Shown piece by piece: positions 1,498 to 46,681 of a DNA stretch of 64,000 nucleotides (positions are counted from its first letter, which is position 1; the number at the start of each line of letters is the position of its first letter). The position numbers and the translations under genes are program-made. The stretch comes from a virus: positions 1 to 64,000 of the IMG/VR virus record IMGVR_UViG_3300043015_000560. The stretch is one strand, 5' to 3'. The notes under the pieces were generated by a model. The model saw only the letters and a list, made by a program, of their open reading frames with translations. It was not told the origin of the DNA and made no database searches.

Positions 1498-2249
1498 TGA
1501 ATCTCACAATGCCGTCCGCTTTTAAACAGGCGCAGTTTGTTATAAGAATGAATGCTATTATTGCATTCGTTCTGCTATTTAAATACGCATCAATCTTTTT
1601 AATACCTCTCATTTGGTTTGGCTTCTTGTTATATGGAACCTTATTTGAGATTTCACTTCATCGCTACTTTACGCATCGCTCATTTAAAACAAGCAAATAC
1701 AAAGAGTACCTATTAAGGTTCATTGCCTTTTTAATGGGACAAGGTTCTATATTAGGTTGGATCACTGTACATAGAACACACCACAGATATGCAGACACAG
1801 AAAAAGATCCTCATAGTCCAAAGTATATGCCGTTATGGCGAGTCCTTACTGCAAGTTATGGTGACATGACTTCCCCTAGAATGATAATGAAAGAACTTAA
1901 AGGCCCTGACGCTGAGTATTTAAAATGGGAAGCAAGATATTATGCGTTCCTTTGGGCCGCCCTATGGATTTTAACTTTATCTATTAGTCCGGTATTGTTG
2001 TTTGTTGTTTCAGGTGGTGCTACAATACAAATCATATCAGTCGGATTATTAAATATTATATGCCACCAGTATGGCGACAAACCATATGAAAATGCTTCCG
2101 CTTATAATAACAAATGGTTGAATCTTCTTATAGGTTACGCCAACCACAATTCACATCATCACAAGCCATCGTCGTCCTACCACAAGCACGATCATGTTGG
2201 TTTTATTATTAATAAATTTTTTGAGGACGTAAAAGAGAATGGCAAATAA
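1497..2249 (+). CDS. Membrane fatty acid desaturase (acyl-CoA Delta-9 type)
   Basis: 250 residues with the three histidine boxes of the di-iron membrane desaturases: HRYFTH (HxxxxH), HRTHH (HxxHH) and NHNSHHH near the C-terminus. Hydrophobic segments lie at residues about 16-45 and 150-190. Such enzymes insert a cis double bond into acyl chains in the inner membrane. Length is short for the family but all iron-ligand boxes are present, so it is probably active. It is embedded between a methyltransferase and a radical SAM gene with overlaps on both sides. Desaturases are known auxiliary genes of marine myoviruses and may alter host membrane fluidity or a lipid-linked product. Confidence 0.85.
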   Translation: MNLTMPSAFKQAQFVIRMNAIIAFVLLFKYASIFLIPLIWFGFLLYGTLFEISLHRYFTHRSFKTSKYKEYLLRFIAFLMGQGSILGWITVHRTHHRYADTEKDPHSPKYMPLWRVLTASYGDMTSPRMIMKELKGPDAEYLKWEARYYAFLWAALWILTLSISPVLLFVVSGGATIQIISVGLLNIICHQYGDKPYENASAYNNKWLNLLIGYANHNSHHHKPSSSYHKHDHVGFIINKFFEDVKENGK

Positions 2250-3726
2250 CGAATCAGATGTAGATGGTATTCGATCTAGAACTAAAGAACTAGAAGCACA
2301 AGTAAGTCCGACATTTTGTTTAGCGAAGTGGCATCACACTTCCATCTATATGTATAGCGGACAAACCCACTCTTGTTACCACCCTCGCCCACACGATATT
2401 CCTTTACAAGGGTTGGCAGAAAATCCAGCGCAGTTACACAATACTCCTCAGAAAAAACAAGAGCGTGCTGAAATGCTTGTTGGTGAAAAGCCCGATGGCT
2501 GTAAGTATTGTTGGAATGTTGAAGGACTTGATTCAGAGAATCCTGATATGCCTAATACCCATATCAGTGATAGAATGATTCGTAATCAGTCAATTCATAC
2601 ACCAGAACGTATGGAAGAAATTTTAGCTAAGCCATGGGACTTTGATGTTAACCCAGAATATATTGAAGTAGCATTTTCAAACGAATGTAATTTTAAATGT
2701 GGTTATTGTCACCCTGCTGTTAGTTCTAGTTTTTATAATGAGATGAAAAAACACGGACCATTTAATATGGTTGAGAATCACGCATTAGATATTGACTACA
2801 TTGAGGCAAGTGGACATCTAACGTCTTTAAAAGATGAAGACACCAATCCTTATGTTGCTGCTTGGTGGAAATGGTGGCCCGAGATGTCTAAGACATTAAA
2901 CATTCTTAGAATTACAGGTGGCGAGCCGTTACTACACAAATCGACTTGGCGTTTGTTAGAAGAATTAAAACAAAACCCTAAACCTCATTTGGAGTTAAAT
3001 TGTAACTCTAATTTAGGAATGGTAAATCGTCATGTTGTTAAGTTAACCAAATACATCAATGAACTTATGGAACTTGGAGCAATTAAGAAGTTTAAATTGT
3101 TTTCTAGTATGGACACCTGGGGCCCTAGAGCAGAGTATTTGCGAACAGGACTAGACTTAGAGAAATGGGAAAAGAATCACGACACTTATATTAGAGGTTG
3201 TAAGTCTCACATCACGCACATGGTAACATTTAATATTTTATCCGTGTCGTCATTTAAAGACTTCTTACAAAAAATATTAGACTGGCGTGCTGAGTATAAT
3301 GATGTAATTCCAATCATTGATCCTAGAAACCCAAACGACAGAAAGATTCGTTTTGACACTCCTTACTTAAAGGAGCCACTACAATATGATATGCACTTGT
3401 TGCCTAAAGAAGAATACCTTCCTTACTTCGACGAATGTTTAGATTTCATTCAAGAGAATATGAACGAAGAGGATTGTAGGACATTTAGCAAATTAGAGTA
3501 TGAAAGATTTAGACGTGTTCGAGATTATTTTGCAGAAGTTAATTATGATGAGAATAAAGTTAAAGAAGGACGAATAGATTTTTACAATTGGTTTACAGAA
3601 CTTGATAGAAGAAGAAACACAAACTTTGTTGAAACTTTCCCAGATATGATTCCTTTTTGGGAACTTTGTAAGGGTTTGGCAGAGGAGAAAAAGGCAAACA
3701 GAATAGGAGTCACCCAGATTATATGA
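2239..3726 (+). CDS. Radical SAM protein, paralogue 1
   Basis: 495 residues. The radical SAM cluster motif CxxxCxxC is at about residues 150-157 (CNFKCGYC) and the SAM-contacting GGEP at about 228. N-terminal cysteine-containing elements, THSCYHP and GCKYCW, are shared with the paralogue at 9997-11517 and could ligate an auxiliary iron-sulfur cluster. The C-terminal half is alpha-helical and ends in a segment conserved in both copies (RRNTNFVETFPD versus RRGTDLVETFPE). Proteins like this recur in T4-like marine phages with no known substrate. The start overlaps the desaturase by 11 nt. The enzyme class is well supported; the reaction is unknown. Confidence 0.85.
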   Translation: MANNESDVDGIRSRTKELEAQVSPTFCLAKWHHTSIYMYSGQTHSCYHPRPHDIPLQGLAENPAQLHNTPQKKQERAEMLVGEKPDGCKYCWNVEGLDSENPDMPNTHISDRMIRNQSIHTPERMEEILAKPWDFDVNPEYIEVAFSNECNFKCGYCHPAVSSSFYNEMKKHGPFNMVENHALDIDYIEASGHLTSLKDEDTNPYVAAWWKWWPEMSKTLNILRITGGEPLLHKSTWRLLEELKQNPKPHLELNCNSNLGMVNRHVVKLTKYINELMELGAIKKFKLFSSMDTWGPRAEYLRTGLDLEKWEKNHDTYIRGCKSHITHMVTFNILSVSSFKDFLQKILDWRAEYNDVIPIIDPRNPNDRKIRFDTPYLKEPLQYDMHLLPKEEYLPYFDECLDFIQENMNEEDCRTFSKLEYERFRRVRDYFAEVNYDENKVKEGRIDFYNWFTELDRRRNTNFVETFPDMIPFWELCKGLAEEKKANRIGVTQII

Positions 3727-3733
3727 GGCTCCA

Positions 3734-4477
3734 ATGGCAAATTTAATATTAGGTTTAGGCGATTCTCTTATCGGAGGCTGTGAGTGCGAGTCCCCTCCCA
3801 AACATTCTTTTATTGCTACTGTAGCTAAGGAGTTTGGCTGGGATCACCTTGTGATTGCAGAATCAGGCATATCAAATCTTGCAACTATAACAAATGCCTT
3901 TACTAGTGATTTTGATTGGAGTAAATACGACAAAAAAATTATTATTATTAATATTGCACATTATCAAAAACTAAGTTTACTAGCAGATAGAAGAGAAGAC
4001 AGGAATTGGGAAACATTTCTACCCAAAGGAAAGAAATGGGCTAGTTGGTCAGAAAATAAAATAATAGTTAATAATGGTTTAAAAGAATTCATCACACCCG
4101 AACTCGGACAAAGACAATTTTATTCTGATTATAAATTATTAGAAGCATTTAAAACATTACACGGGTTCAGCGATATTTTTATGATACCTTCTATAGAGAA
4201 TCTTACAAAGGAATTTTTTTCGCCAGACATCGAGGGTTACAATGAGTTTCCTTGGGAAAATATTTTAGAGATTGATGGCATACGATCATCCTGGCATTGG
4301 TGTTATTGGAAAGCCCATGGTGTAATAGATTACAACGCAAGAATAGATCAGGATTGGTGGTTGTTTTCAAAGGGCGAAAAAAGAACAAGATATTTTCATG
4401 AAAGAGGACACCCTAAAGAAGAGATGCAAGAATTATATGGCAAAGCAGTTGCCAACCACCTAAGAGAAAAGATATGA
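3734..4477 (+). CDS. SGNH/GDSL-hydrolase-like protein 1
   Basis: 247 residues. The N-terminal block LGLGDSLIGG matches the GDSL nucleophile block, and near the C-terminus ERGHPKEE resembles the block V histidine region, although the usual Asp three residues before the His is Glu here. SGNH enzymes act as esterases, deacetylases or acyltransferases, often on glycans. It lies between a radical SAM gene and an epimerase gene, with an ATGA overlap to the latter. Two further SGNH-like genes follow at 7775 and 8802. Fold assignment is moderately supported; activity is uncertain. Confidence 0.55.
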   Translation: MANLILGLGDSLIGGCECESPPKHSFIATVAKEFGWDHLVIAESGISNLATITNAFTSDFDWSKYDKKIIIINIAHYQKLSLLADRREDRNWETFLPKGKKWASWSENKIIVNNGLKEFITPELGQRQFYSDYKLLEAFKTLHGFSDIFMIPSIENLTKEFFSPDIEGYNEFPWENILEIDGIRSSWHWCYWKAHGVIDYNARIDQDWWLFSKGEKRTRYFHERGHPKEEMQELYGKAVANHLREKI

Positions 4478-5475
4478 AAATTTTTATAACAGGCATTGCA
4501 GGATTTTTAGGCAGTCATTTAGCTGAAGAACTTTCTGCGTTGGGACATGAGGTATCGGGCAACGACAATCTTGTAGGTGGTGAAGTTTATAACGTACCTA
4601 AAAATGTAGACTTCTCTTTTGCTGATTGTACTGACTTTTGTGCAATGGAAAAACTGTTAGAAGGTGTAGACATTGTAATACACGCAGCAGCCACAGCACA
4701 TGAGGGGTTGTCTGTATTTAGTCCATCCTTTATTACTAAGAATATTTTTGAAGCATCAGTTACAACTATCTCAGCAGCCATATCAAACAATGTTAAGAGG
4801 TTTGTATTCTGTTCTTCCATGGCAAGATACGGTAATCAAGTAGCACCCTTTACTGAAGACATGGATCCAAAGCCGGTTGATCCTTATGCGATTGCCAAGG
4901 TAGCCGCAGAACAAGTATTACAAAATCTTTCTGAAACACACGGCATGGAATGGAACGTCGCTGTGCCTCATAATATTATTGGGCCGAGACAAAGGTATGA
5001 CGACCCGTTTAGAAATGTCTTGAGTATAATGTTAAATAGAAACTTACAAGACAAACCTGTTTACATATACGGAGACGGTGAGCAAGTTAGATGTTTTTCT
5101 TATGTGTCTGAATGTACGGACTCATTAATTAAAATGGCACTAGATCCTAACATTACAAGTGAAGTTATTAACATTGGCCCTGATGAAGGTGAGATTACTA
5201 TTAATCGTTTAGCAGAATTGGTTGCGAGCGAGACTGGTTGTAACTTAGAACCTATTCATGTTGCAGATAGGCCGAGAGAAGTTAAAATATCCCACTGCTC
5301 AAGCGATAAGGCAAGAAGATTGTTAGACTATAAACCTACTATTACACTTCAAGAGGCAATAAGAAATACAGCAGATGAAATTCGTATACGTGGGACAAAA
5401 GAGTTTGATTATACTTTCCCTTTAGAAATTAATTCAGACATTACACCGGACACCTGGAAAAAGAGACTCATTTAA
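4474..5475 (+). CDS. NAD-dependent epimerase/dehydratase (extended SDR)
   Basis: 333 residues. The Rossmann motif GIAGFLGSH (GxxGxxG) is at residues 6-14; the catalytic serine region is FCSSMARYG and the catalytic YxxxK is YAIAK. The C-terminal half has the layout of UDP-sugar epimerases and dehydratases. It probably interconverts or dehydrates a nucleotide-activated sugar for the glycan genes around it. It overlaps both neighbours (ATGA with the SGNH gene, TAATG with the next gene), so it is part of the same transcript. A second, separate epimerase is at 16735. Confidence 0.85.
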   Translation: MKIFITGIAGFLGSHLAEELSALGHEVSGNDNLVGGEVYNVPKNVDFSFADCTDFCAMEKLLEGVDIVIHAAATAHEGLSVFSPSFITKNIFEASVTTISAAISNNVKRFVFCSSMARYGNQVAPFTEDMDPKPVDPYAIAKVAAEQVLQNLSETHGMEWNVAVPHNIIGPRQRYDDPFRNVLSIMLNRNLQDKPVYIYGDGEQVRCFSYVSECTDSLIKMALDPNITSEVINIGPDEGEITINRLAELVASETGCNLEPIHVADRPREVKISHCSSDKARRLLDYKPTITLQEAIRNTADEIRIRGTKEFDYTFPLEINSDITPDTWKKRLI

Positions 5476-6464
5476 TGAATGATTGGGTCAATCCTTATCA
5501 ACAAAGGATCAGGAATAGCCCGTGGATTCCAGAACAAGATAATATTTACAGTATAGGTGTAGCTGGTTCATTGTATGAGTGGACACAGGCGAATGGCAAA
5601 TCCCTATTCCATTTTCTAGATCTAGAAAAACTAAAAAACAAAAAAGCAATCCTTGTTATTGATTATACTATTGAAGGTTATGATGAGCCTTGGATTTATG
5701 ATTGGCTTTACAAGGAATCAAAACGCTACGGGATATCACCCGAACAAATTGTTTATTGTCCAGGTGACTTGAGCGCTAAATCTGATATAATAAAAACTAT
5801 ACCCTTTTGTTGGTTTGAGAAAAAAGCGTTTCTCAATACTTTAGAACAACCCGTCCCAACATTCGAAGATCATTTAAATTATAAAAAAGATAATCCGACT
5901 TTGTTGTTTAATTGTCCTCAAAAAAGAATACGTGGGCACCGAAAACTTTTTGATACTAAAATAGAATCAATTAAAGACAAAGGGATATACAGTTTTATCG
6001 GCACCGATCAATTTATAGAAGGCGATAAACACGAAGAAGAACTAAGTTATTACATAGATAGATTCCATCAGCAATACTGCCTCGATACGTTTGTTACCAT
6101 TGTTAGCGAGCCACAATATTTTGGTGATAGCAAATTTTTAAGTGAGAAAATATTTAAACCAATTGCCTGCTCACACCCATTTATAGTTCTTGGAACACAA
6201 GGGTATCTCAAGGAGTTAAAAAAGAAAGGTTATAAAACTTTTGATAATTGGTTTGACGAATCGTATGATGAGATGCCAGATAATCTTAGAATGGGAAGTA
6301 TAATAAATACGTTGAAAGAAATTGATTTGATACAGGACAAAACATCTTGGTTTGAATCTATGAGAGAAACATTGGAGCATAATTATAAGGTAATGCAGAC
6401 TAATTATATTAATCACAATGTAGCAACTACTATACGGAATTACGCTAATGAAATTTGCTTTTGA
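5475..6464 (+). CDS. Putative glycosyltransferase, paralogue A
   Basis: 329 residues. The C-terminal region contains LSEKIFKPIACSHPFIVLG followed by a lysine/glycine segment and FDESYDEMPD. The SEKxFKPI...PFI pattern resembles the acceptor/donor-binding end of fucosyltransferase-like (GT-B) enzymes, and it recurs in the next gene (LSEKTFKSIAEYSPFIVYG, then IDETYDTLPT), so the two are paralogues. Such proteins are common hypotheticals in marine T4-like phages. Position beside an epimerase and SGNH proteins supports a glycan role. The glycosyltransferase assignment is an inference from this motif and context. Confidence 0.5.
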   Translation: MNDWVNPYQQRIRNSPWIPEQDNIYSIGVAGSLYEWTQANGKSLFHFLDLEKLKNKKAILVIDYTIEGYDEPWIYDWLYKESKRYGISPEQIVYCPGDLSAKSDIIKTIPFCWFEKKAFLNTLEQPVPTFEDHLNYKKDNPTLLFNCPQKRIRGHRKLFDTKIESIKDKGIYSFIGTDQFIEGDKHEEELSYYIDRFHQQYCLDTFVTIVSEPQYFGDSKFLSEKIFKPIACSHPFIVLGTQGYLKELKKKGYKTFDNWFDESYDEMPDNLRMGSIINTLKEIDLIQDKTSWFESMRETLEHNYKVMQTNYINHNVATTIRNYANEICF

Positions 6465-7785
6465 GGATAAGACATATTTAAATAATTTTAAATTGTGTGG
6501 TGATAAGAATAACTCAGGCTTGTTACGATTCACCCCCTGTCCTATGACCTCTACACTTGTTAGGTATTGGCAAACTAAAGATAGGTATAACAATTTAAGT
6601 TTTGCTAATTATTCTATTTACCACCACGGTATCGATTCAGACACTACAATAAAATATCTAATATCGACAGGTGTTAATCACAGTCCAGGAGAATGGTGTG
6701 GCCCTGATAGAATGGGACAAGGATACAATCCCAGCCACCCAGATAGAAAAAGTGTTTTTGCTCTTTTGAACGACAAATATTTAAAGGACTTACAAGACAA
6801 CAATGCCATGTTAATGTTGGACCAAAGTCATGAGGGGTATCAAGTACCTTGGCTTTGGAGTTGGTTTCATAACGAATGTGATGACAATAACATTTCACCT
6901 AGAAATATAATCTATGTAACCGGCAATTGTTTAGCAGAAGAACAATATACTTCATGGGCAAATACACATGGCATTGTAACAAGAATTAAAGTTGTTCCGT
7001 ATACACACTTTGAAAATATGATTAATGTAACTGCTGAGAATAGAGTTAGAATTGACGGTGGAGATCCGTTGCCAACATTTGAAAGCCACATTGAACATAA
7101 AACTAATAACCCTGAGGAACTAAAAACTTTTAACGCATTACAAAAAAGAATTAGACCTCACAGAGTTTGGTTATACAAGATGTTGCACGACCATAACCTA
7201 TTGCAAGATGGACTCTGTTCTATGAACGAGTTTACACAATACAACACCTATTTAGAAGGCAAGTCTTTACCTGAAGATGTTATAGATAAATATAATGAGG
7301 GTTTGCCGTTAAAGGTTTATAACAAAGCAAACAATGAAAAAGATGACGGGTATTATATAACAAGATTTAATGATGAAACAATACTCAACACCTTTGTAAG
7401 CGTTGTAAGCGAGGCATCGTTTGCTGATATGGATCAGACTTGTTTTTTAAGTGAAAAAACTTTTAAGTCGATTGCTGAATATAGTCCTTTTATTGTTTAT
7501 GGCAATAGGCGTTCTTTAGAGTTTTTGAAAGACTTTGGTTACAAGACATTTCATCCTCATATAGATGAGACTTATGATACGCTACCAACATTTGAAAGAT
7601 TGGAAGCAATTATTAAAGAAATAACTAGAATTAAAAATATTGAAGATAAGGTTGAATGGTTTAAAGGTATGGAAGATATATTACAACACAATAGAGAAGT
7701 GTTGAGAAAAAACTCTAATGATTATGTTCCTAAAGCAATGATAGACGTCCACAGATATTATGAGGAAACTTTAAATGTACGCTAA
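6448..7785 (+). CDS. Putative glycosyltransferase, paralogue B
   Basis: 445 residues, overlapping paralogue A by 17 nt. It shares with it an N-terminal element (a short YxVPW/DEPWIY-like helix region: QVPWLWSWFHNE here), a central KRIRPHR segment (KRIRGHR in A) and the C-terminal LSEKTFKSIA motif with FHPHIDETYD. It is about 115 residues longer, mainly through insertions in the N-terminal half. Tandem duplication followed by divergence is the simplest explanation. The function is inferred to be sugar transfer; the sugar is unknown. Confidence 0.5.
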   Translation: MKFAFEDKTYLNNFKLCGDKNNSGLLRFTPCPMTSTLVRYWQTKDRYNNLSFANYSIYHHGIDSDTTIKYLISTGVNHSPGEWCGPDRMGQGYNPSHPDRKSVFALLNDKYLKDLQDNNAMLMLDQSHEGYQVPWLWSWFHNECDDNNISPRNIIYVTGNCLAEEQYTSWANTHGIVTRIKVVPYTHFENMINVTAENRVRIDGGDPLPTFESHIEHKTNNPEELKTFNALQKRIRPHRVWLYKMLHDHNLLQDGLCSMNEFTQYNTYLEGKSLPEDVIDKYNEGLPLKVYNKANNEKDDGYYITRFNDETILNTFVSVVSEASFADMDQTCFLSEKTFKSIAEYSPFIVYGNRRSLEFLKDFGYKTFHPHIDETYDTLPTFERLEAIIKEITRIKNIEDKVEWFKGMEDILQHNREVLRKNSNDYVPKAMIDVHRYYEETLNVR

Positions 7786-8812
7786 CGAATATGACGCAAT
7801 TAATAAAGACTTAGAGCGTACTAGAAAAGCGGTTATTGTATTCGGTGATTCTTTTGTGGAAGGTCAAGGCTCTATTGATGAAAAGATTTTAAACAAATAC
7901 CCACATCACATAGACGACGGTAATGTAATAAAATTCGATATAGACGTAGAAGAAAAAAAACAAATTGTTAAGGATTTTCCAGATATACAATTAGAGTTAC
8001 TTGGCGCAGAAGGTGATATGCGTTGGGAGTTAAATGTTGTACACCATGAAAGAAACAGAAACTTTGGTGCTCATCTTTGCAATGAGCATTTAAATAAAGA
8101 ATGGACTCATATCAATTTTGGCATGAGGGGTAATGGTAACAGAGCTAGTATAATGAATCTTTTTCTGCACCCGTTTTTGAATTTAGACGTAGCTAAAGAG
8201 TTTATTATAATATATGTACCAAGCGGCCCAGAAAGATTTGATTTCTCTCATAGAGAAAATCCAACGGGAGGTTCACCGGGTCATTTCTATTTTGAAACTA
8301 TGTGGCCTACTGCTAATACTGCGCGGGCCGGTTTACAAGATCAATTTGAAAGACAAACTAAAGGTAAACCGACTGATATAGAGGACAGGGCATACTACCG
8401 GGCTTCTTTGTGGGAGGCTTATGGGCATTACGTTTACTCAGAGAGAATGATAGCACAAGAACAAGTCTTACATTGGCAAGTATTAAACCAATGGATGCGT
8501 AGTAGAAAAATAAGAAAGTTTTTATGGACTCCTGCATTTGATAACCGTTGGTCAAGAAAACATTTTTTACGATCGGGGTTGGCTCCATCCTTAGTAGATA
8601 GTTTTCCGTGGGATAAAAAATTCAGCCCAGGAGGATACAACTCATTTGTAAATCTTGTAGAAGCTCAAGAAGGGCTAAAGTACAATAGCTTTTATAACTA
8701 CATGGGCACAGGATCTCCTGAGGGCTGGATTACAGCGTGCGCACACCCATCATACAAAGGGCACAAAAGATTCGCAAAAACAATTTATGAGGAATTAAAA
8801 GATGTCCTATGA
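7775..8812 (+). CDS. SGNH-hydrolase-like protein 2
   Basis: 345 residues. VFGDSFVEGQG near residues 22-32 matches the GDSL nucleophile block and GMRGNGN corresponds to the block III GxxN region. The C-terminal ACAHPSYKGH matches the block V His-Pro, but the Asp normally three residues before the His is Ala. That gap suggests reduced or altered catalysis, or a different acidic residue. It overlaps the preceding gene by 11 nt and the following SGNH gene by 11 nt. Its role is probably acyl transfer to, or removal from, a glycan, if it is active at all. Confidence 0.55.
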   Translation: MYANEYDAINKDLERTRKAVIVFGDSFVEGQGSIDEKILNKYPHHIDDGNVIKFDIDVEEKKQIVKDFPDIQLELLGAEGDMRWELNVVHHERNRNFGAHLCNEHLNKEWTHINFGMRGNGNRASIMNLFLHPFLNLDVAKEFIIIYVPSGPERFDFSHRENPTGGSPGHFYFETMWPTANTARAGLQDQFERQTKGKPTDIEDRAYYRASLWEAYGHYVYSERMIAQEQVLHWQVLNQWMRSRKIRKFLWTPAFDNRWSRKHFLRSGLAPSLVDSFPWDKKFSPGGYNSFVNLVEAQEGLKYNSFYNYMGTGSPEGWITACAHPSYKGHKRFAKTIYEELKDVL

Positions 8813-9758
8813 TCCAATGGCGTTTGACCAACTTATAGACGATACGCCAATTAAAAAATTTAAGAACCTAGGAGATGGTTTCAGATCCGAGCACGACGAA
8901 GATGGAGTTTTGTTTCCTGCTCCTATTGCTCTTTGGGAGAAATATCCTTTCCTCCCTTTAATGTCTAGTTCCAGCCCTGGCAACGTCCAAGACTTTGTTA
9001 TAGGTGACACCGAGAATGACTATGAACAACACAAAATAGAAATGGGCCCTGATTGGAAATACTACAACACACCTATAAAATATATTATTAATGATAATGG
9101 TTACCGAGCGCCTGAATGGAACACCATTGACTGGGAGAATAGTTATGTCCTATTAGGTTGCTCTTGTTCATTTGGTGTTGGATTAGATGAGGAAGAAACT
9201 TTGTCTAGGCATTTATCAATTGGACTTAAGGCTCCTGTTATAAATCTGGGCTACCCGGGTGGTTCCAATGAAACCATCATTTTCAACTTGTTGAGACTTC
9301 TTAAACACTACCCTAAACCTAAAGGGGTTATTATACAGTGGACAACTTTAGATAGGGCTATAATGTGGCACAAGCTTCAGCATTATAACTTAGGTCCTTG
9401 GGATATTGCTAATTATCCGCCCACAAGAACAAAGACATTTGATGGAACAGATTGTACCGAGCAATACCTAACTATGTTTTTAGATCAATACAATGAAGTA
9501 GGCAAGAACTATATGTGGGGACAGATGGCTAAGGAATTATTAAAGTCTGCAAACATACCTTCTTCTTACTTTTCTTTTTTCGGTAACACATCAACTGTTA
9601 TGAGATGTAATTGGAACGCTATGGATCCTGATCAAAAGAACGTACCCGTTTCAGAGTTGACTCGCCTTGAATGGGCAAGAGACTTGGTACACCCAGGAAA
9701 TTTATGTATGAAAAGAACAGCAGAGAGAATTATTAAAGACAAATTGTTGGTAAGATAG
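8802..9758 (+). CDS. SGNH-hydrolase-like protein 3
   Basis: 318 residues. LLGCSCSFGVGLDEEET at about residue 115 fits the variant GCSxxFG nucleophile block, GYPGGSNE the GxxN block, and DLVHPG the DxxH block near the C-terminus, so of the three SGNH-like proteins here this one has the most complete triad. Its N-terminal 110 residues are extra. It closes the overlapping gene run; after it come a 60-nt gap and a strong promoter. Substrate unknown. Confidence 0.6.
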   Translation: MSYDPMAFDQLIDDTPIKKFKNLGDGFRSEHDEDGVLFPAPIALWEKYPFLPLMSSSSPGNVQDFVIGDTENDYEQHKIEMGPDWKYYNTPIKYIINDNGYRAPEWNTIDWENSYVLLGCSCSFGVGLDEEETLSRHLSIGLKAPVINLGYPGGSNETIIFNLLRLLKHYPKPKGVIIQWTTLDRAIMWHKLQHYNLGPWDIANYPPTRTKTFDGTDCTEQYLTMFLDQYNEVGKNYMWGQMAKELLKSANIPSSYFSFFGNTSTVMRCNWNAMDPDQKNVPVSELTRLEWARDLVHPGNLCMKRTAERIIKDKLLVR

Positions 9759-9771
9759 GTATAATAAATAC

Positions 9772-9800
9772 TTGACAGTAGACTTATTATAATATATAAT
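9772..9800 (+). promoter_or_regulatory. Sigma70-type promoter
   Basis: TTGACA at 9772-9777 and TATAAT at 9795-9800 with a 17-bp spacer, a full consensus match. It faces the small gene at 9823 and then the second radical SAM and carbamoyltransferase genes. Confidence 0.85.
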
Positions 9801-9822
9801 ACACTTATAACTAGGATTATTT

Positions 9823-9981
9823 ATGAAAGATTTTAAAGCAAAACAGAAAGAACTCACAGAACTTAATGCAGACGGTAATGAAGATCGTAACAGAGAAGGT
9901 GAGTCTTCATCTAAAGAACAAGAAGAGTTGAAGAAACGACTTGAAGAATTGAGGAAGAACGACCCCTTTATTTACGAATAA
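9823..9981 (+). CDS. Small charged helical protein, 52 aa
   Basis: ATG at 9823, TAA at 9979-9981, with AGGA at about 9812-9816 upstream and a perfect promoter before that. The product is very rich in Lys and Glu with a run of heptad-like leucines (EELKKRLEELRK), so it should form a short coiled coil. No function recognised. The strong promoter and ribosome-binding site make it a likely real gene despite its size. Confidence 0.65.
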   Translation: MKDFKAKQKELTELNADGNEDRNREGESSSKEQEELKKRLEELRKNDPFIYE

Positions 9982-9996
9982 AAGAAAGGTTATATT

Positions 9997-11517
9997 ATGT
10001 CTGATTATGATACCGCTGCTGATGTAGCAGAGAAGCAACTTAGAAATATTTCTAATACTATGTGCTACGCCAAGTGGAGTCAAGTGTCTTTACATTTGCC
10101 CAATGGTAGAACGCACTCTTGTTATCACCCTCCCACGCACGCAATAGATGTTGAAGAGATTAAAGAAAACCCTTCAGCACTACATAACACCAAACAGAAA
10201 AAAGAAGAAAGACAAATGATGCTTGACGGCAAGCGTCCTTCTGGTTGTGAGTATTGTTGGAAGATTGAAGACACCGGGAATAGAAGTGATCGTGTCTACA
10301 GGAGCGGAGAATATTGGGCACAAAATTCTAGAAAAGATATTATAGCGAGTACAGGAAATAATCTAGAAATTAATCCGAGATACGTTGAGGTTAATTTTAA
10401 TCAGGCTTGTAACTTTAAATGCTCTTACTGTTCGCCACACTTATCTAATACATGGGAAAGAGAAATATCTAGACACGGTGCCTATGAGATTATTGGTACT
10501 GACGGCAAACGTTCAAGACATAATGACGTAGGGCACTTAGATAAAATTGGCATGATGCCGAAAAAATTATCACAAAAAGAAAACCCGTATGTTGAGGCGT
10601 TTTGGAAATGGTGGCCCGACCTTTATCAGACACTAGAAGTTTTTAGAATGACTGGTGGCGAACCATTAATGGACTCTAATACATTTAAAGTTTTAGAATA
10701 CATTTACGAGAATCCTAATGCTTGGTTGGAAGTAAGTGTTACAAGCAATATGTGTCCTCCCAAGCCAGCGCTTATGGATAAGTTTATTTCTTTATTACAA
10801 AAATTAGAAGAGATACAAATTTGGCATAGCGAAAGATGGAATCCAGGCTCAGGAAATAATTGGTATGTTAATATGGCAGTTAAAAACTTTGCTGTCTTTG
10901 TTAGCTTGGACGGAATGGGAAAACAAGGAGAATATATACGGGACGGACTTAAAATGAAAACATTGAAAAAGAATGTTGACAGAGTCCTAAGCGAGACTTG
11001 TAATACAACTGTTAGCTTTATTAATACTTTTAACTCTTTAAGTTTACCTACTTTTAAGGAGTATTTGCAGTATATTTTAGAACTTAGAGGAGAGTATTCG
11101 AGGGAAAAACAGGGCGTAAAGAAGATTCCTATATATGACGAATATAACACACACCCAGACTTTGAAGTACACCCTAGACAGCGTATTTGGTTTGATGTTC
11201 CTTTGTTACGAAATCCTCAGTGGCAATGTATCAATACACTTCCACCACAGTTTGAAAAATACTTGATTGACGCTATTCAGTTTATGGAAGAGAATACAGA
11301 CACAGATAACTTTGTTGGTTTTTATGATTTTGAAATTGACAAAGTAAAAAGAAATTTAGAATGGATGCGAGCTAGAAACAATTCCAAGGAAGTTACAACA
11401 ATAGCAAGAAAGAATTTTGTTAAGTTCTTTAAGCAACATGATGAAAGACGTGGTACAGATTTAGTAGAGACGTTCCCAGAATTTAAGGACTTATGGAGAA
11501 AATATGGCGAAGAGTGA
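9997..11517 (+). CDS. Radical SAM protein, paralogue 2
   Basis: 506 residues. CxxxCxxC at about residues 138-145 (CNFKCSYC), GGEP at about 222, plus the extra cysteine elements THSCYHP and GCEYCW that paralogue 1 also has. The two proteins align over their full length, including the tryptophan-rich WKWWPD segment before the GGEP strand. The ribosome-binding site is AAGAAAGG upstream of the ATG. The carbamoyltransferase overlaps its 3' end by 14 nt. Two diverged copies around a glycan cassette suggest sequential or alternative modification steps, but the substrate is not deducible. Confidence 0.85.
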   Translation: MSDYDTAADVAEKQLRNISNTMCYAKWSQVSLHLPNGRTHSCYHPPTHAIDVEEIKENPSALHNTKQKKEERQMMLDGKRPSGCEYCWKIEDTGNRSDRVYRSGEYWAQNSRKDIIASTGNNLEINPRYVEVNFNQACNFKCSYCSPHLSNTWEREISRHGAYEIIGTDGKRSRHNDVGHLDKIGMMPKKLSQKENPYVEAFWKWWPDLYQTLEVFRMTGGEPLMDSNTFKVLEYIYENPNAWLEVSVTSNMCPPKPALMDKFISLLQKLEEIQIWHSERWNPGSGNNWYVNMAVKNFAVFVSLDGMGKQGEYIRDGLKMKTLKKNVDRVLSETCNTTVSFINTFNSLSLPTFKEYLQYILELRGEYSREKQGVKKIPIYDEYNTHPDFEVHPRQRIWFDVPLLRNPQWQCINTLPPQFEKYLIDAIQFMEENTDTDNFVGFYDFEIDKVKRNLEWMRARNNSKEVTTIARKNFVKFFKQHDERRGTDLVETFPEFKDLWRKYGEE

Positions 11518-12955
11518 TAAGATAGTTTGGGGTGTTGCCGCGGGTACACACGATGCCTCTCTAACTGTTATGCAAGGTGATGAAATATTATTCGCATCTC
11601 ATTCAGAAAGATTTAGTAGAATTAAAAATGACAAGGACCTACATCCAAAACTTGTAGAGTATGCTTTAACATTTGGCAAACCCACAAAAGTATATTGGTA
11701 TGAGAATCCTCTACTCAAGGCATATAGAAAATGGGGTGCCGGTCAGAAGAACCTCTGGTTGAGCCCTAAAAAATATATGAAATCGTACGGCATTACTGCA
11801 CCAATTAAATGGGGACTACACCACAAGTCTCACGCGGCCGCAGGACTATATACGTCTCCCTTTGACGATGCCGCGGTAGTAGTTATTGATGCTATTGGTG
11901 AAATGCAAACCACATCAATATGGGAAACAACAAAAGATAGAAAACTTAAAAAACTTATTTCTTGGAACTACCCATTTTCAATAGGTCTCTTTTATTCTGC
12001 GTTTACTGCTAGAGTAGGGCTGAAGCCAAATGAAGATGAATACATTCTAATGGGAATGTCTGCATACGGAAACCCAGATAGATTCTATGATGAAATTTGT
12101 GGCTTGATTGATGCAGAATATAATTTTCACCAGGGTGTTAGGCACTGGAGACCAGAACTAAAGCCTGAAGATTATTTTGACGTTGCCGCCGCAGTGCAAA
12201 AACTATATGAAAAGAATTTAGAAATTATGTTAGTTAAAGCCAAAGTCAGATCACAAAAGAATAATCTTGTACTGATGGGCGGGTGTGCATTAAATTGTCT
12301 GGCAAATAGACTTATTCCTTACCACTTCGAAAACAGTTGGATAATGCCCAACCCAGGTGACGCTGGTTCTTCATTGGGAGCAATATTAGCAGCAAGAGAA
12401 ACTCAGGCTAGATGGAGAAGCCCTTACACGGGTTATGACATTAAAGGCGAATACCCCACGCAAGCTATACTAGATGAATTGTTTAAAACTGGCATGGCAG
12501 GAGTCGCAAACGGCAAAGCAGAGTTTGGACCTAGGGCATTAGGCAATCGAAGTTTGTTAGCAGATCCTAGGGGCAGTCGAATGAAGGATAAAGTTAATAA
12601 TATTAAACAGCGACAAGAATATAGGCCGTTTGCTCCTGTTATTAGACTGGAAGATGTAAAGGAATGTTTTAATGTGCCTGATGATTTCGCCTCTCCATAT
12701 ATGCAGTACGTTGTTACTTGTAAACAACCAAAGAAATATCCAGCAATTGTTCATGAGGATGGGACGTCAAGAGTACAAACTGTTACAAAAGAACAGCATC
12801 CTGGATTGTATGAATTGTTAACAATCTGGAAGGAGCGCACAGGCTGCCCAATGTTACTAAATACAAGTTTAAACATCAAAGGACAGCCTATTGTGAACAC
12901 CGAAAAAGAAGGTAGAAAGTTTGAAAAAGTTTACAATGTAAAGGTGTTTTCTTAG
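11504..12955 (+). CDS. Carbamoyltransferase, NodU/CmcH family
   Basis: 483 residues. The N-terminal Kae1-like domain has GTHDASLTV, SERFSR and the metal-binding histidine cluster HHKSHAAAG; MGGCALNCLANR follows. The C-terminal YrdC-like part has EFGPRALGNRS and LLNTSLNIKGQP, all hallmark segments. These enzymes move a carbamoyl group from carbamoyl phosphate, through carbamoyl-AMP, to a hydroxyl of a sugar, Nod factor or antibiotic. It is somewhat shorter than typical members (about 550-600 aa). In this context it probably carbamoylates a glycan made or altered by the upstream genes. Confidence 0.88.
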   Translation: MAKSDKIVWGVAAGTHDASLTVMQGDEILFASHSERFSRIKNDKDLHPKLVEYALTFGKPTKVYWYENPLLKAYRKWGAGQKNLWLSPKKYMKSYGITAPIKWGLHHKSHAAAGLYTSPFDDAAVVVIDAIGEMQTTSIWETTKDRKLKKLISWNYPFSIGLFYSAFTARVGLKPNEDEYILMGMSAYGNPDRFYDEICGLIDAEYNFHQGVRHWRPELKPEDYFDVAAAVQKLYEKNLEIMLVKAKVRSQKNNLVLMGGCALNCLANRLIPYHFENSWIMPNPGDAGSSLGAILAARETQARWRSPYTGYDIKGEYPTQAILDELFKTGMAGVANGKAEFGPRALGNRSLLADPRGSRMKDKVNNIKQRQEYRPFAPVIRLEDVKECFNVPDDFASPYMQYVVTCKQPKKYPAIVHEDGTSRVQTVTKEQHPGLYELLTIWKERTGCPMLLNTSLNIKGQPIVNTEKEGRKFEKVYNVKVFS

Positions 12956-14862: not shown

Positions 14863-15234
14863 ATGGAAAAGTTACTACAGAAAACACAAGAAGTCGCAGA
14901 TTTGATGCTCAAAGACTACGACAATTGGACTAAAAGATGTGCCGAGGCTAACGGCTGGGACTATAAAAGTTCCGAAGAAAAGGGTGTTACAATAACACTA
15001 GAAGAAGGCAGAAACTTTATTAAGTTCGTTAAGACTGATGGTCAGTCTTGTGTGAACGGGTTTGTTGTTAAGAATCCACCAAAAGGAATTGACAACAAAA
15101 CAGGCAAACCTTTCCAAGTTGGTGACTTGTTAATGGCAGCGTCCTGGTCGGCTCCTGCGAAAAACTTTGCAAGAGGAAATGTGTTTCAACCCGAGACACT
15201 TGGTAAATGTATTAGATGGACAGGAGTTCTTTAA
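14863..15234 (+). CDS. Hypothetical protein, 123 aa
   Basis: I start it at the ATG at 14863, which has GTGAGGT upstream; an ATG at 14830 is also in frame and lies 12 nt after the -10 box. The product has an N-terminal helix, then a beta-rich part with SWSAPAKNFARGNVFQ near the end. No family recognised. Its 3' end overlaps the exonuclease gene by 19 nt, which suggests coupled translation and a possible nucleic-acid role. Confidence 0.55.
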   Translation: MEKLLQKTQEVADLMLKDYDNWTKRCAEANGWDYKSSEEKGVTITLEEGRNFIKFVKTDGQSCVNGFVVKNPPKGIDNKTGKPFQVGDLLMAASWSAPAKNFARGNVFQPETLGKCIRWTGVL

Positions 15235-15893
15235 AATTGTTTGAACATAATATTGTTGAGATACCTCAACTAAAACAAATTAACACAGACGCCGGAAGGA
15301 GATATGAAACTCCTTCTGGTACGCTGTACCCGTCAATTACGACAATCTTATCTCATAAGTCTAAGCCCTTTATTGATGCTTGGCGTAAACGAGTAGGAGC
15401 AGATGTTGCTAACAAGATTAGCAATAAAGCCTCAACTCGAGGGACAAAGATTCACCAATTGTGCGAAGACATTCTTAATAATAAATTGACAGACGATTCA
15501 AGTCTCAATTATATTGATAAAGAAATGTTCCAAAAGTTTCGTCCTTTGTTAGACGACATAGGTGTGATTAATAGTATTGAATCCAAGCTATATTCAGATC
15601 ACCTACGTCTTGCAGGACAGGTTGACTGCATTGCCGAGTATAAAGGCAAAGTGTCAATTATTGATTTCAAAACTTCTATGAAACGTAAAACTAGAAGTAT
15701 GTGTGAAAACTATTTTATACAATGCTGTGCTTATGCTATTATGTTTGAGGAGCGTACAGGTATTCCTGTATCTCAGCTAGTAATACTTATGGCAGTCGAG
15801 GGTGAAGAGCCCATCGTATTTTGTGAGAAGAGAGACGACTATGTTGCCAAACTTCTAGAAGCAAGAGACGACTACGAAGCGGCGTATAAATAA
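15216..15893 (+). CDS. PD-(D/E)XK exonuclease (MGME1/RecB-like)
   Basis: 225 residues. RGTKIHQLCE corresponds to the helical motif of Cas4/RecB-type nucleases, GQVDCIAEY supplies the Asp and IIDFKTS the D-x-K catalytic pair, followed by CENYFIQCCAYAIMFEE matching the QxxxY helix. Such enzymes degrade DNA from ends and in T4-like marine phages belong to the replication and recombination set. The ATG at 15216 is inside the previous gene; TTG at 15237 with GGAG upstream is a possible alternative start. The stop codon overlaps a late-promoter box for the tmRNA. Confidence 0.8.
   Translation: MDRSSLKLFEHNIVEIPQLKQINTDAGRRYETPSGTLYPSITTILSHKSKPFIDAWRKRVGADVANKISNKASTRGTKIHQLCEDILNNKLTDDSSLNYIDKEMFQKFRPLLDDIGVINSIESKLYSDHLRLAGQVDCIAEYKGKVSIIDFKTSMKRKTRSMCENYFIQCCAYAIMFEERTGIPVSQLVILMAVEGEEPIVFCEKRDDYVAKLLEARDDYEAAYK
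15885..15892 (+). promoter_or_regulatory. T4-type late promoter box upstream of tmRNA
   Basis: TATAAATA overlapping the exonuclease stop codon. A start 6 nt downstream would fall at about 15898, where the tmRNA acceptor piece appears to begin. Confidence 0.5.
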
Positions 15894-15897
15894 AATG

Positions 15898-16181
15898 CCT
15901 GTTGAGGGTTGTAGTAAAACGAGGCTGGACTCGGGTTCGAATCCCGACAGCTCCACCAAAAGCATACTAGTGTCCAGTTAAGTTTGGAACACATCTGATA
16001 AAGTGGCTAGTGTGCTTTTGATGGGGCTGACAAGGTATCGACAGTCAAGAAAATAAGCAACAAGAGGGTCGTCAGAGTAGACGTAAAAACTATTTTAATC
16101 TAAATGCAAACGCAAACGATTACGCATTAGCAGCATAAGCTAATTGGGGTATGGGCTCCACCTTATAATCAAACGGGCCCA
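15898..16181 (+). ncRNA. ssrA: Circularly permuted two-piece tmRNA
   Basis: The acceptor piece comes first: T-arm TCGGG/TTCGAAT/CCCGA at 15931-15947, acceptor 3' strand 15948-15954, then A-CCA at 15955-15958. After an intervening segment comes the coding piece, starting GGGGCTG at 16023-16029. The two strands form a 7-bp acceptor stem with G3-U70, the alanine identity pair. The intervening segment folds back on itself through 13 pairs (15958-15970 with 16007-16019, one T-G), which would hold the two ends together until processing. The tag frame at 16106-16138 reads ANANDYALAA-stop. The hairpin 16153-16159/16175-16181 ends the coding piece. Outer ends are approximate. It rescues stalled ribosomes and tags their peptides for proteolysis. 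Confidence 0.9.
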
Positions 16182-16200
16182 ACATTAAAGGAGGACTTCC

Positions 16201-16695
16201 ATGAGAACAATTCTAGGAATAATCTTGGGACTTTCAACTTTTCCAAGTACAGGTACAGGATTAGATGAACCCACAGATGTTGATTTAAGACAAGTACATT
16301 GTTTAGCACACAACATTTATTTCGAAGCATCCAACCAAGGAACTGCTGGAATGGTTGGAGTAGGACAAGTAACACTCAATAGAGTAAAGTCTAAAAAATA
16401 TCCTAATACAATTTGCGAGGTTGTATACCAAGCAGAGTATAGGATAAACTGGAAAGGTAATAGAGTTCCTGTCCTAAATCGGTGCCAGTTCAGTTGGTAT
16501 TGTGATGGGAAAGCAGAAACAATACGTTACCCAAAGGATTATGATGAAGCTTATATTATGGCAGAACTTCTAATAGAAGACCGCCTAGTTGATATAACAG
16601 ATGGTGCCTTATTTTATCATGCGGATTATGTTAGCCCAAAGTGGGCAAAGAGCATGGCACAAAAAATAAAAATAGGCGACCATATCTTTTATTAA
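16201..16695 (+). CDS. Cell wall hydrolase, SleB family
   Basis: 164 residues behind an excellent ribosome-binding site (AAAGGAGG). CLAHNIYFEASNQG at residues about 36-49 carries the catalytic Glu of the SleB/Hydrolase_2 fold, followed by QVTLNRV and CQFSWYCDG typical of the family, a lytic transglycosylase-type peptidoglycan hydrolase. The first 18 residues are hydrophobic (ILGIILGLSTF) and could be a signal peptide, which would let it reach the periplasm without a holin. It is a candidate lysis enzyme for the phage; I see no holin nearby. Confidence 0.85.
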   Translation: MRTILGIILGLSTFPSTGTGLDEPTDVDLRQVHCLAHNIYFEASNQGTAGMVGVGQVTLNRVKSKKYPNTICEVVYQAEYRINWKGNRVPVLNRCQFSWYCDGKAETIRYPKDYDEAYIMAELLIEDRLVDITDGALFYHADYVSPKWAKSMAQKIKIGDHIFY

Positions 16696-16734: not shown

Positions 16735-17610
16735 ATGAATAAAACAATTCCAAATATTATAGTAACCGGCGGGTGTGGATTTATTGGGTCACATCTTGTT
16801 GAAAGACTTCTAGCAGAGGGGTTCTTTGTTACTGTAGTAGATGACAGACGGGCGGGTAACAATGTAGTTACGCATCCTAATGTGTTATACATTTTCCAAG
16901 ACGTGGGAGTATTCAATCCTTTTGTTTCAGAGATAGACCCGCCCGTCGCAATATTTCACTTAGCAAACAGTCCGAGAGTTAGACGCTCTTTAGATTACCC
17001 TACAGAGACCATTGTCAATAATGTTGTTACTACTGCCACTGTCTGTGACTGGGCACGAGTAATGAACTGTAGGCTGTTCTTCGCTACATCTTCAAGTACC
17101 AAGTATATTAAGGAATCGAGAAACCCTTACACTTGGAGCAAGTATACCTGCGAAGATATGTTAACCCTTTATAAGGATCTATACGGACTAGAGTACACAA
17201 AGATGTTCTTTTATAATGTGTACGGTCCTCGAGAAGCAGACTATGGCGAGTATAGCACAGTTATTAGAAAATTTAAACAGGATTACTTACAAGGAAAAAG
17301 TTTGACGGTATTTGGCACAGGTGCTAAAGAAAGAGACTTCACCCATGTTTATGATGTTGTCCAAGGATTGTTAGATTTATTGATAGACGAACAATGGTAT
17401 GAGAATGTACACCTAGGCAAAGGTTCACCTCAGACTATTCAGTCTATTGCAGAAGAATTTAATACTTCAATTGTCTACTCTTTTGATAAAGAAGGAGAGG
17501 CACAAAGAACCATGTGTGAACGACCGTATACAGAGTGCCCAACGAATGTTCATACTTATATTAGAAACTGGGTACGGGAGAACAGCGGTGACCGCCAAAT
17601 TAGTCGTTGA
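16735..17610 (+). CDS. NAD-dependent epimerase/dehydratase 2
   Basis: 291 residues. VTGGCGFIGSHLVERL at residues 10-25 is the NAD-binding motif of extended SDR enzymes, FATSSSTKYI the serine region and YTWSKYTCED the catalytic YxxxK. It is clearly different from the epimerase at 4474 but of the same superfamily, resembling UDP-glucose 4-epimerases. There is no ribosome-binding site because the promoter ends only 6 nt before the ATG. It is the first gene of a unit running into gp33-gp59, an odd place for a sugar enzyme. Confidence 0.85.
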   Translation: MNKTIPNIIVTGGCGFIGSHLVERLLAEGFFVTVVDDRRAGNNVVTHPNVLYIFQDVGVFNPFVSEIDPPVAIFHLANSPRVRRSLDYPTETIVNNVVTTATVCDWARVMNCRLFFATSSSTKYIKESRNPYTWSKYTCEDMLTLYKDLYGLEYTKMFFYNVYGPREADYGEYSTVIRKFKQDYLQGKSLTVFGTGAKERDFTHVYDVVQGLLDLLIDEQWYENVHLGKGSPQTIQSIAEEFNTSIVYSFDKEGEAQRTMCERPYTECPTNVHTYIRNWVRENSGDRQISR

Positions 17611-19642: not shown

Positions 19643-20221
19643 ATGATAGTAATCTCAATGCCACGATGTGGTGGAACTAAATACTGCCAAGACTTGTCCA
19701 ATACAACAGGACTTCCTTATAAGGGAGACATGGACATTTACAACCTTCCCGAATTAGGATCGGTTTGGCACCATATTAAAACTACACACCACGAAACTAA
19801 TACTGGCGGATTGATTACAATCGACGATACTGTAGACACGGTATCTAACTATAAGGACAACATCGTTCTAATTAACAAAAACTTTACACCCATGTTACCA
19901 TTCGGCGATGTGTATTTAATTAGAAAGAACCTTAGAAACATCTTTACAAGTTTAACCGAGTATTGGCTACGAATAGGTGGGGGAGAGTTTCCTACCATAT
20001 TTAATGAAAAGAACTTGAAAGAGATGGCAGTTCAGTGTAAAATATACATTGAATATTTAAACAACAATAATATTGAACCGGTTTATTACGAAGATTATTT
20101 TAACGATCATCCTCACAATACACCAATACTAGATAACCACAAAGCTAAGGAAGCATACTTACACTTTATAGATGAGACTATGTCTCAATTAGGATTAAGC
20201 GCTCTTAGCTCAACTGGATAG
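19643..20221 (+). CDS. Sulfotransferase-like P-loop protein
   Basis: 192 residues. ISMPRCGGTKYCQDL at the N-terminus resembles the 5'-phosphosulfate-binding loop of sulfotransferases (PRSGT type), and VYLIRKNLRNIFTSL resembles the Arg/Ser motif contacting the 3'-phosphate. It would transfer sulfate from PAPS to a carbohydrate or small molecule. The ATG is 3 nt after the gp32 terminator T-run, with no ribosome-binding site; the 3' end runs 23 nt into the tRNA gene. A start at the second ATG (19658) is possible. It looks like an inserted accessory gene. Confidence 0.55.
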   Translation: MIVISMPRCGGTKYCQDLSNTTGLPYKGDMDIYNLPELGSVWHHIKTTHHETNTGGLITIDDTVDTVSNYKDNIVLINKNFTPMLPFGDVYLIRKNLRNIFTSLTEYWLRIGGGEFPTIFNEKNLKEMAVQCKIYIEYLNNNNIEPVYYEDYFNDHPHNTPILDNHKAKEAYLHFIDETMSQLGLSALSSTG

Positions 20222-20275
20222 AGCAACGGCCTTCTAAGCCGTAGGTTGCAGGTTCGAGTCCTGCAGGGCGCGCCA
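20199..20275 (+). tRNA. tRNA-Arg (anticodon UCU), CCA encoded
   Basis: Acceptor stem GCGCTCT/AGGGCGC, anticodon stem ACGGC/GCCGT with loop CTTCTAA (anticodon TCT), T-arm TGCAG/GTTCGAGTC/CTGCA, discriminator G and encoded CCA. It reads AGA, the dominant arginine codon of the phage genes here. Confidence 0.95.

Positions 20276-40477: not shown

Positions 40478-46681
<6,204 letters not shown>

Follow-up and report, generated by a model that had tools for sequence, protein, structure and literature searches.

Does a circularly permuted, two-piece transfer-messenger RNA (tmRNA) gene carried by a phage make a working RNA, and does the spacer between its two pieces share the history of the gene around it? 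Both questions are raised by a locus on the + strand of IMG/VR virus record IMGVR_UViG_3300043015_000560, at positions 15897–16181, where 16181 is an estimate taken from the point at which the match to a near-identical relative (L004) ends. The window analysed here is the first 64 kb (64,000 nucleotides) of this 80,085-base record, which is probably incomplete. We give a probability of about 0.78 to the reading that the locus is a working two-piece tmRNA of a T4-like phage, transcribed late, processed by the host and used for tagging, and that its intervening sequence (IVS) has a history of its own. Phage tmRNAs of the two-piece form have been published before, and this gene adds another. An excerpt of PMC9004378 describes one in Methylophilales phage Melnitz (MZ577096) and reports a database survey in which 133 unique tmRNA structures were carried by 402 phages, with 53 two-piece calls by ARAGORN, 50 of the 53 from marine or aquatic sources.

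Anatomy of the tmRNA gene and its closest relatives

The window holds a complete and intact permuted tmRNA gene (Table 1). Acceptor piece, spacer and coding piece follow one another in the order proposed by the sequence-only reading, an earlier annotation made from the letters of the window, and both ARAGORN and the Rfam covariance models bear this order out. ARAGORN calls a permuted tmRNA at 15866–16229 with the tag ANANDYALAA, the same tag that had been read before. The two-piece covariance search suggested at that time was run, and the model tmRNA_permuted (RF04321) matches 15897–16138 with 103.3 bits (cut-off 47, E 4.8e-19). When the window was searched, beta_tmRNA (RF01850) matched 15849–16187 with 88.5 bits (cut-off 84). 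Only tmRNA models reach gathering score at the window gene, and only tmRNA and tRNA models do so at 15 further tmRNA loci. The acceptor stem has seven pairs with a G-U as pair 3, as had been recognized from the sequence, and the tag frame closes with a stop after an -AA end, which fits the permuted form. Bacterial two-piece tmRNAs (RF01850, RF01849 and the merged RF04321) have the same gene order, G-U at pair 3, T-arm and tag frame. The bacterial T-arms compared mostly read CCGGGGGCGGTACCCGG, whereas that of the window is TCGGGTTCGAATCCCGA.

The acceptor strands together with the IVS fold at −39.3 kcal/mol against a shuffle mean of −19.1 (z −6.9), and none of 200 shuffles did as well. The whole 285-nt gene folds at z −3.9; a pairing between the acceptor piece's 5' end and the coding piece's 3' end appears in this prediction, but we make no claim for it. 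The spacer stem is predicted as a run of 15 pairs and not the 13 first claimed.

Close relatives were fetched with the protein of the upstream exonuclease gene (80 loci). L006 and L087 align to the window at 100 percent identity. The long flanks of L004 and L005 are 98.6–99.1 percent identical to the window and those of L007 98.5–98.8 percent, and all three have an IVS other than the window's, of 29 or 31 nt. L004 and L005 also carry about 300 extra bases 3' of the coding piece. In the trio of window, L004 and L007, no differences were found in the 51 columns before the T-stem or in the 98 columns of 16034–16131. Within the divergent block between them, two T-stem pairs (TA/GC/GC and CG/AT/TA in window/L004/L007) and two acceptor pairs (CG/CG/GC and TA/TA/CG) change, and all are still paired. 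Because these changes are compensated in near-identical phages, the tmRNA fold is judged to be under selection. In ten loci obtained with the exonuclease, 120 of 120 cells of the T-stem and acceptor stem are paired, a count that is partly so by construction since ARAGORN and the parser chose the loci; the trio, which is anchored by its flanks, is less easily explained by selection of loci.

A captured host gene decaying without function would be a highly improbable account of this locus. According to an excerpt of PMC11915505, tmRNA genes are often integration sites of genomic islands and fragments of them can be carried off. Against decay stand the full-length covariance match, the conserved promoter box described below, synteny, and compensated pair changes between phages that are 0.9–1.5 percent apart in their flanks. 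It is also quite unlikely that the RNA is a tmRNA-derived decoy that inhibits trans-translation in the host rather than performing it, as the window gene has an intact tag frame with its stop, an -ALAA end and tRNA-like features.

A link to SAR11, which the sequence-only reading had brought up, did not hold. The best subtype model for the window is betaproteobacterial, and sister phages are split between subtypes (L008 alpha, L012 beta). L004 and L007 score 113.2 and 106.3 bits with RF01850. Host assignment by Rfam subtype was dropped, since sister loci disagree, and the lineage meaning of the RF01850 beta match is doubtful.

Table 1. Positions of the tmRNA parts and adjoining features in the window
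Feature	Position	Strand	Basis or remark
Exonuclease gene (phrog_298)	15216-15893	+	upstream of tmRNA; syntenic anchor common to Melnitz and HTVC008M
TATAAATA box, probable T4-type late promoter	15885-15892	+	overlaps end of exonuclease gene (15216-15893)
Acceptor piece (tRNA-like 3' part)	15897-15958	+	Rfam RF04321 alignment
T-arm	15931-15947	+	within acceptor piece
Divergent block (T-stem, acceptor, IVS, acceptor, D-loop start)	15931-16033	+	all T-stem and acceptor pairs kept
Acceptor 3' strand CAGCUCC	15948-15954	+	
Encoded ACCA	15955-15958	+	directly after acceptor 3' strand
IVS, 64-nt hairpin, removal expected in processing	15959-16022	+	fold; unit common to unrelated phages
Coding piece, with D-loop region and 3' region to about 16181	16023-16181	+	ARAGORN, Rfam
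Acceptor 5' strand GGGGCUG	16023-16029	+	
Tag frame ANANDYALAA-stop	16106-16138	+	
Endolysin-family match (phrog_938)	16201-16695	+	gene downstream of tmRNA

Promoter and expression

The octamer TATAAATA, which we take to be the T4 late promoter consensus, occurs 14 times in the window against 7.8 ± 3.0 expected, a modest enrichment that 2 of 100 shuffles reach. The late-promoter reading is drawn from the fixed position of the box before related phage tmRNAs and not from this enrichment. ARAGORN made 148 permuted calls among the loci gathered, duplicates and one bacterial contig included; the 148 parsed loci gave 97 deduplicated ones with 300 nt upstream, one of them the bacterial contig. In 29 of these 97 loci the box lies 60–70 nt before the acceptor 3' strand. 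Within the upstream 300 nt, 29 of 35 copies fall at −70 to −60, in loci with different surroundings. The box had been said to lie where a transcript beginning with the acceptor piece would need it, and the conserved position agrees. It is probably the late promoter of the tmRNA.

That the box is incidental, running across the last exonuclease codons while the tmRNA comes from read-through or an early promoter, is unlikely. The modest enrichment in the window would suit such an account, as would the sigma-70-like element TTGAC..TA...T: of 98 related loci 18 have it, compared with 37 of 1,476 60-nt windows taken as background. The window's own gene gave no match to the sigma-70-like pattern and has the late box only. 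The clustering of the upstream copies at one distance despite different surroundings argues against a chance box.

Several observations weigh against a working, late-transcribed tmRNA. The box is present at 30 of 98 loci, and 8 of these 30 also have a sigma-70-like element. An excerpt of PMC9004378 infers an early promoter for the Melnitz tmRNA, and in Pelagibacter phage HTVC008M no TATAAATA lies within 150 nt of the tmRNA. "Late" is thus read from a sequence box. The late box and the early promoter of Melnitz can be compatible, provided that both kinds are in use in some phages. The search for SmpB was negative in the 80-kb record, itself probably incomplete, and in 10 of 10 further phage records with permuted-tmRNA calls, among which Melnitz is described as complete and others may be partial. 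With no SmpB in the record, function would depend on the host. Occurrence is also sporadic. ARAGORN makes a permuted call in 20 of the 80 relatives fetched with the exonuclease, and Rfam, run on 18 of the other 60, found no tmRNA in any of the 18; many flanks are short.

The window tmRNA is genuine, most likely functional and probably expressed late. Intact anatomy, compensated changes, a conserved box position and synteny with Melnitz were observed; expression, processing, charging and tagging are proposed by analogy with established tmRNA behaviour. Transcription would begin late, from the TATAAATA box, near 15897. Host tRNA-processing enzymes would then excise the hairpin IVS, with RNase P cutting at 16023 and 3' maturation following 15958, and the two pieces would be held together by the acceptor stem and helix P2. 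Host alanyl-tRNA synthetase could charge the G3-U70 acceptor. Host SmpB would bring the tmRNA to ribosomes stalled on broken mRNA, and the stuck protein would receive the ANANDYALAA tag for host proteases.

Spacers shared between little-related phages

The spacer stem had been visible in the window, but its sharing between unrelated phages could not be seen from one sequence. An exact 29-base piece of the window IVS occurs in three viral contigs, L278, L279 and the identical relative L087. Over the whole 64-nt IVS, L279 matches at 64/64 and L278 at 63/64 positions. Both carry permuted tmRNAs by Rfam (L278, 93.5 bits; L279, 88.9 bits), of which ARAGORN calls the first and misses the second. Their tags are ANENFAPSGLALAA in L278 and ANDNSYAHEDFALAA in L279. 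Outside the IVS, blastn of the 12.1 kb fetched for L278 gives no other match to the window, and the 10.8 kb fetched for L279 gives a single one, 72 percent over about 490 bases. The coding parts of L278 and the window are 0.63 identical, and the best subtype model of L278 is alpha whereas that of the window is beta. In L279 the identical run extends 8 bases to the left and 4 to the right of the IVS and ends inside the acceptor stem. In L278 the match runs 17 bases to the left, through the acceptor strand, and 8 to the right.

Spacer sharing was counted in 110 unique phage genes from viral contigs and named phage records, the window gene being kept as L006, and in 70 unique bacterial genes from 398 Pseudomonadota genomes (90 loci fetched, 87 parsed). 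Low-score parses, IVS under 20 nt and duplicates were dropped from both sets, and L278 and L279 were excluded from the phage set, having been found by their IVS. Among phage pairs with core identity below 0.80, 49 of 5,893 have IVS identity of at least 0.90 (31 at 0.95), these 49 being non-independent as they come from eight families. Among bacterial pairs below 0.80 there are 0 of 1,686. After removal of the end bases fixed by the search pattern, 46 of the 49 are still at 0.90 or above. The 110 phage genes hold about 72 IVS families, eight of which span two to four core clusters.

Mean IVS identity in the 49 pairs is 0.96. Elsewhere the pairs were compared with 1,500 sampled background pairs: 0.73 against 0.71 in the T-arm, 0.73 against 0.69 at variable acceptor positions, 0.61 against 0.51 at the D-loop start, 0.70 against 0.63 in the 5' part and 0.52 against 0.54 in the coding part. 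At the ends of the mature RNAs identity drops nearly to the background level, and most flanks stay slightly above it. The IVS is therefore a near-identical unit in unrelated backgrounds with sharp borders, as is expected of a mobile element. No bacterial donor was found among the 70 unique genes, where the best phage-bacterium IVS identity is 0.73, and phage-type spacer ends occur in 2 of the 398 Pseudomonadota genomes. The sharing of an excised IVS between otherwise unrelated phages looks new; searches of the open-licence literature showed no prior report of tmRNA spacer exchange in titles or abstract openings. A weak match to the window spacer was also seen in Roseobacter phage CRP-143 (OR420748) at 42071–42111 (41 bases, 83 percent, E 0.02).

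Close relatives speak against frequent exchange. At core identity of at least 0.90, the IVS falls below 0.70 in 3 of 34 phage pairs (two from the trio, plus L098/L114) against 44 of 111 bacterial pairs; among close relatives, then, the spacers of phages mostly hold steady, whereas those of bacteria change rapidly. Bacterial pairs with cores of at least 0.80 share an IVS at 0.90 or above in 23 of 729 cases, as expected from descent. In all these counts the search pattern behind most phage loci fixes the ends of the IVS and not its middle, the bacterial set has one gene per species and is mostly alphaproteobacterial by our reading of tags and T-arms, and viral contigs may come more densely from the same habitats.

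Shared spacers might then not have been exchanged at all, each family being a functional small RNA kept by selection while the core diverged faster. We regard this as doubtful. In its favour, the interior of some families varies less than the stem ends, as with the GGCACGGRCG...GACTTCC core, and the spacers mostly retained in close phage pairs may be constrained. On the other side, the near-identical window, L004 and L007 have three different IVS, the families number about 72 in 110 genes, and the 11-nt IVS of L023 means that no particular IVS sequence is required for the gene to exist. The trio and L023 weigh against a universal need for the IVS, not against roles of particular families. The changed tract of the trio includes T-stem and acceptor and would fit ordinary recombination between tmRNA genes; borders are tighter in the 49 pairs than in the trio. 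Exchange may proceed by ordinary recombination at short stretches in common or through a dedicated mobile unit. The reading we prefer remains an IVS with its own history, by which the same spacer would have come to lie in tmRNA genes of little-related phages, with borders almost at the ends of the mature RNAs.

The IVS of some relatives appears to hold predicted mini-genes. The 93-nt IVS of L008–L018 contains a frame, MYLCICNN...GTNCGKC, of CxC...CxxC type without a clear ribosome site. Its four variants differ by 11 synonymous and 5 non-synonymous changes at 16 and 71 sites (p 1.4e-5, approximate because the variants are related). The IVS of L039/L040 has a 34-residue hydrophobic frame after AGGAG, and that of Melnitz (L089) a frame of 54 residues, preceded by GGAG, that continues into the tmRNA. 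Pfam named no family for the spacer frames. A Bfd-like identity for the CxC...CxxC frame was dropped, as Pfam gave only a sub-threshold zinc-ribbon match. Occasional spacer cargo is already known, because an excerpt of PMC11915505 mentions a permuted tmRNA whose intervening sequence contains a tRNA gene and another that has a repetitive element.

Family cores lie almost wholly within tmRNA spacers. The GGCACGGRCG...GACTTCC core does so in 12 of 12 contigs, and the 30-base core of one 59-nt IVS family in 17 of 18 viral stretches, one of them clipped by the contig start. The copy outside a tmRNA (L422, 8578–8607) forms part of a hairpin-like repeat that immediately precedes a tRNA-Gly gene, and the phage stretch around it has 25 tRNA genes; elsewhere this record has a weak permuted-tmRNA match (54.2 bits). 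The intervening sequence of Coxiella 23S rRNA, termed a selfish element with an open reading frame in an excerpt of PMC4990558, is likewise a spacer inside a stable RNA gene that can carry a frame. Unlike it, the tmRNA IVS belongs to another RNA and sits at the permutation joint. We tentatively suggest that this joint may be a cassette slot in phage two-piece tmRNAs, through which hairpin units, some with mini-genes, could move between unrelated phages and from which processing could release a payload RNA. In that event the tRNA-processing machinery would free each unit, and the payload would become a separate RNA whenever tmRNA is made.

Related phages, neighbourhood and significance

The source phage is a T4-like myovirus, with PHROG matches that include single-strand binding protein, helicase loader, PhoH, a transcriptional regulator, and baseplate hub, wedge and tube-cap proteins. 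The tmRNA lies near PhoH, exonuclease and helicase loader genes, an arrangement of the Melnitz and pelagimyophage kind. The exonuclease is below 60 percent identity to named phages in 961 of 961 records, and the best 40 of the 961 comprise cyanophages, Phage C48C1, Melnitz and HTVC008M.

Melnitz resembles the window in being a T4-like marine myophage with a permuted tmRNA, two small genes 3' of the same exonuclease, and in having TATAAATA, at −66. Its tmRNA precedes the late-transcription coactivator and helicase loader. It differs in its tag, ANDNYVPVDYALAA, in its best subtype model, alpha, and in a 142-nt IVS with an open frame. A glutamine riboswitch (RF01739) follows closely on the tmRNA of Melnitz (L089, 5618–5666), in agreement with PMC9004378; the window has none at gathering level. 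HTVC008M (NC_020484) likewise has a permuted tmRNA shortly 3' of the same exonuclease (90.6 bits with Rfam) and differs in its tag, ANFNEYALAA, and in its best subtype model, alpha. This tmRNA (L091, 5072–5281) overlaps the end of a hypothetical gene and is missing from the feature table of the record.

A pattern scan of viral contigs gave at least 120 stretches. The first pattern search of bacterial genome contigs gave no match, perhaps because the pattern gap exceeds most bacterial IVS. A second pattern gave 8 loci there, with an ARAGORN permuted call only for Massilia. In Massilia eurypsychrophila (G001; contigs C28 and C35; L117, L246 and L247) a permuted tmRNA lies on a 57-kb contig and separate weaker matches on another; this is perhaps a case of a prophage copy beside a standard gene. 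Xanthomonas phage Rb1 (PQ569993; L003, 1440–1868) has an ARAGORN permuted tmRNA with tag ANDDNFRPALRLAA that is unannotated there. Three viral contigs (L098, L114 and L151) have permuted tmRNAs whose predicted tags, AK..TGEVTVS..QSLAV, are unusually long at 29 residues.

Other genes of the window suggest sugar chemistry: two radical-SAM-like proteins, a nucleotide-sugar epimerase and a Nol-like carbamoyltransferase at 2239–12955. A further epimerase is at 16735–17610. A tRNA-Arg (anticodon TCT) at 20199–20275 overlaps the end of an open frame at 19643–20221.

The window gene is a well-supported addition to the tmRNAs of T4-like phages; its promoter is likely a late one, which argues for ribosome rescue during virion production. 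The sharing of spacers between unrelated phages is the part most worth following. If true, phages would be trading a throw-away RNA spacer whose borders lie close to the sites of processing, and this would offer a simple natural system for the spread of very small RNA elements and for a possible function of the spacer RNA itself.
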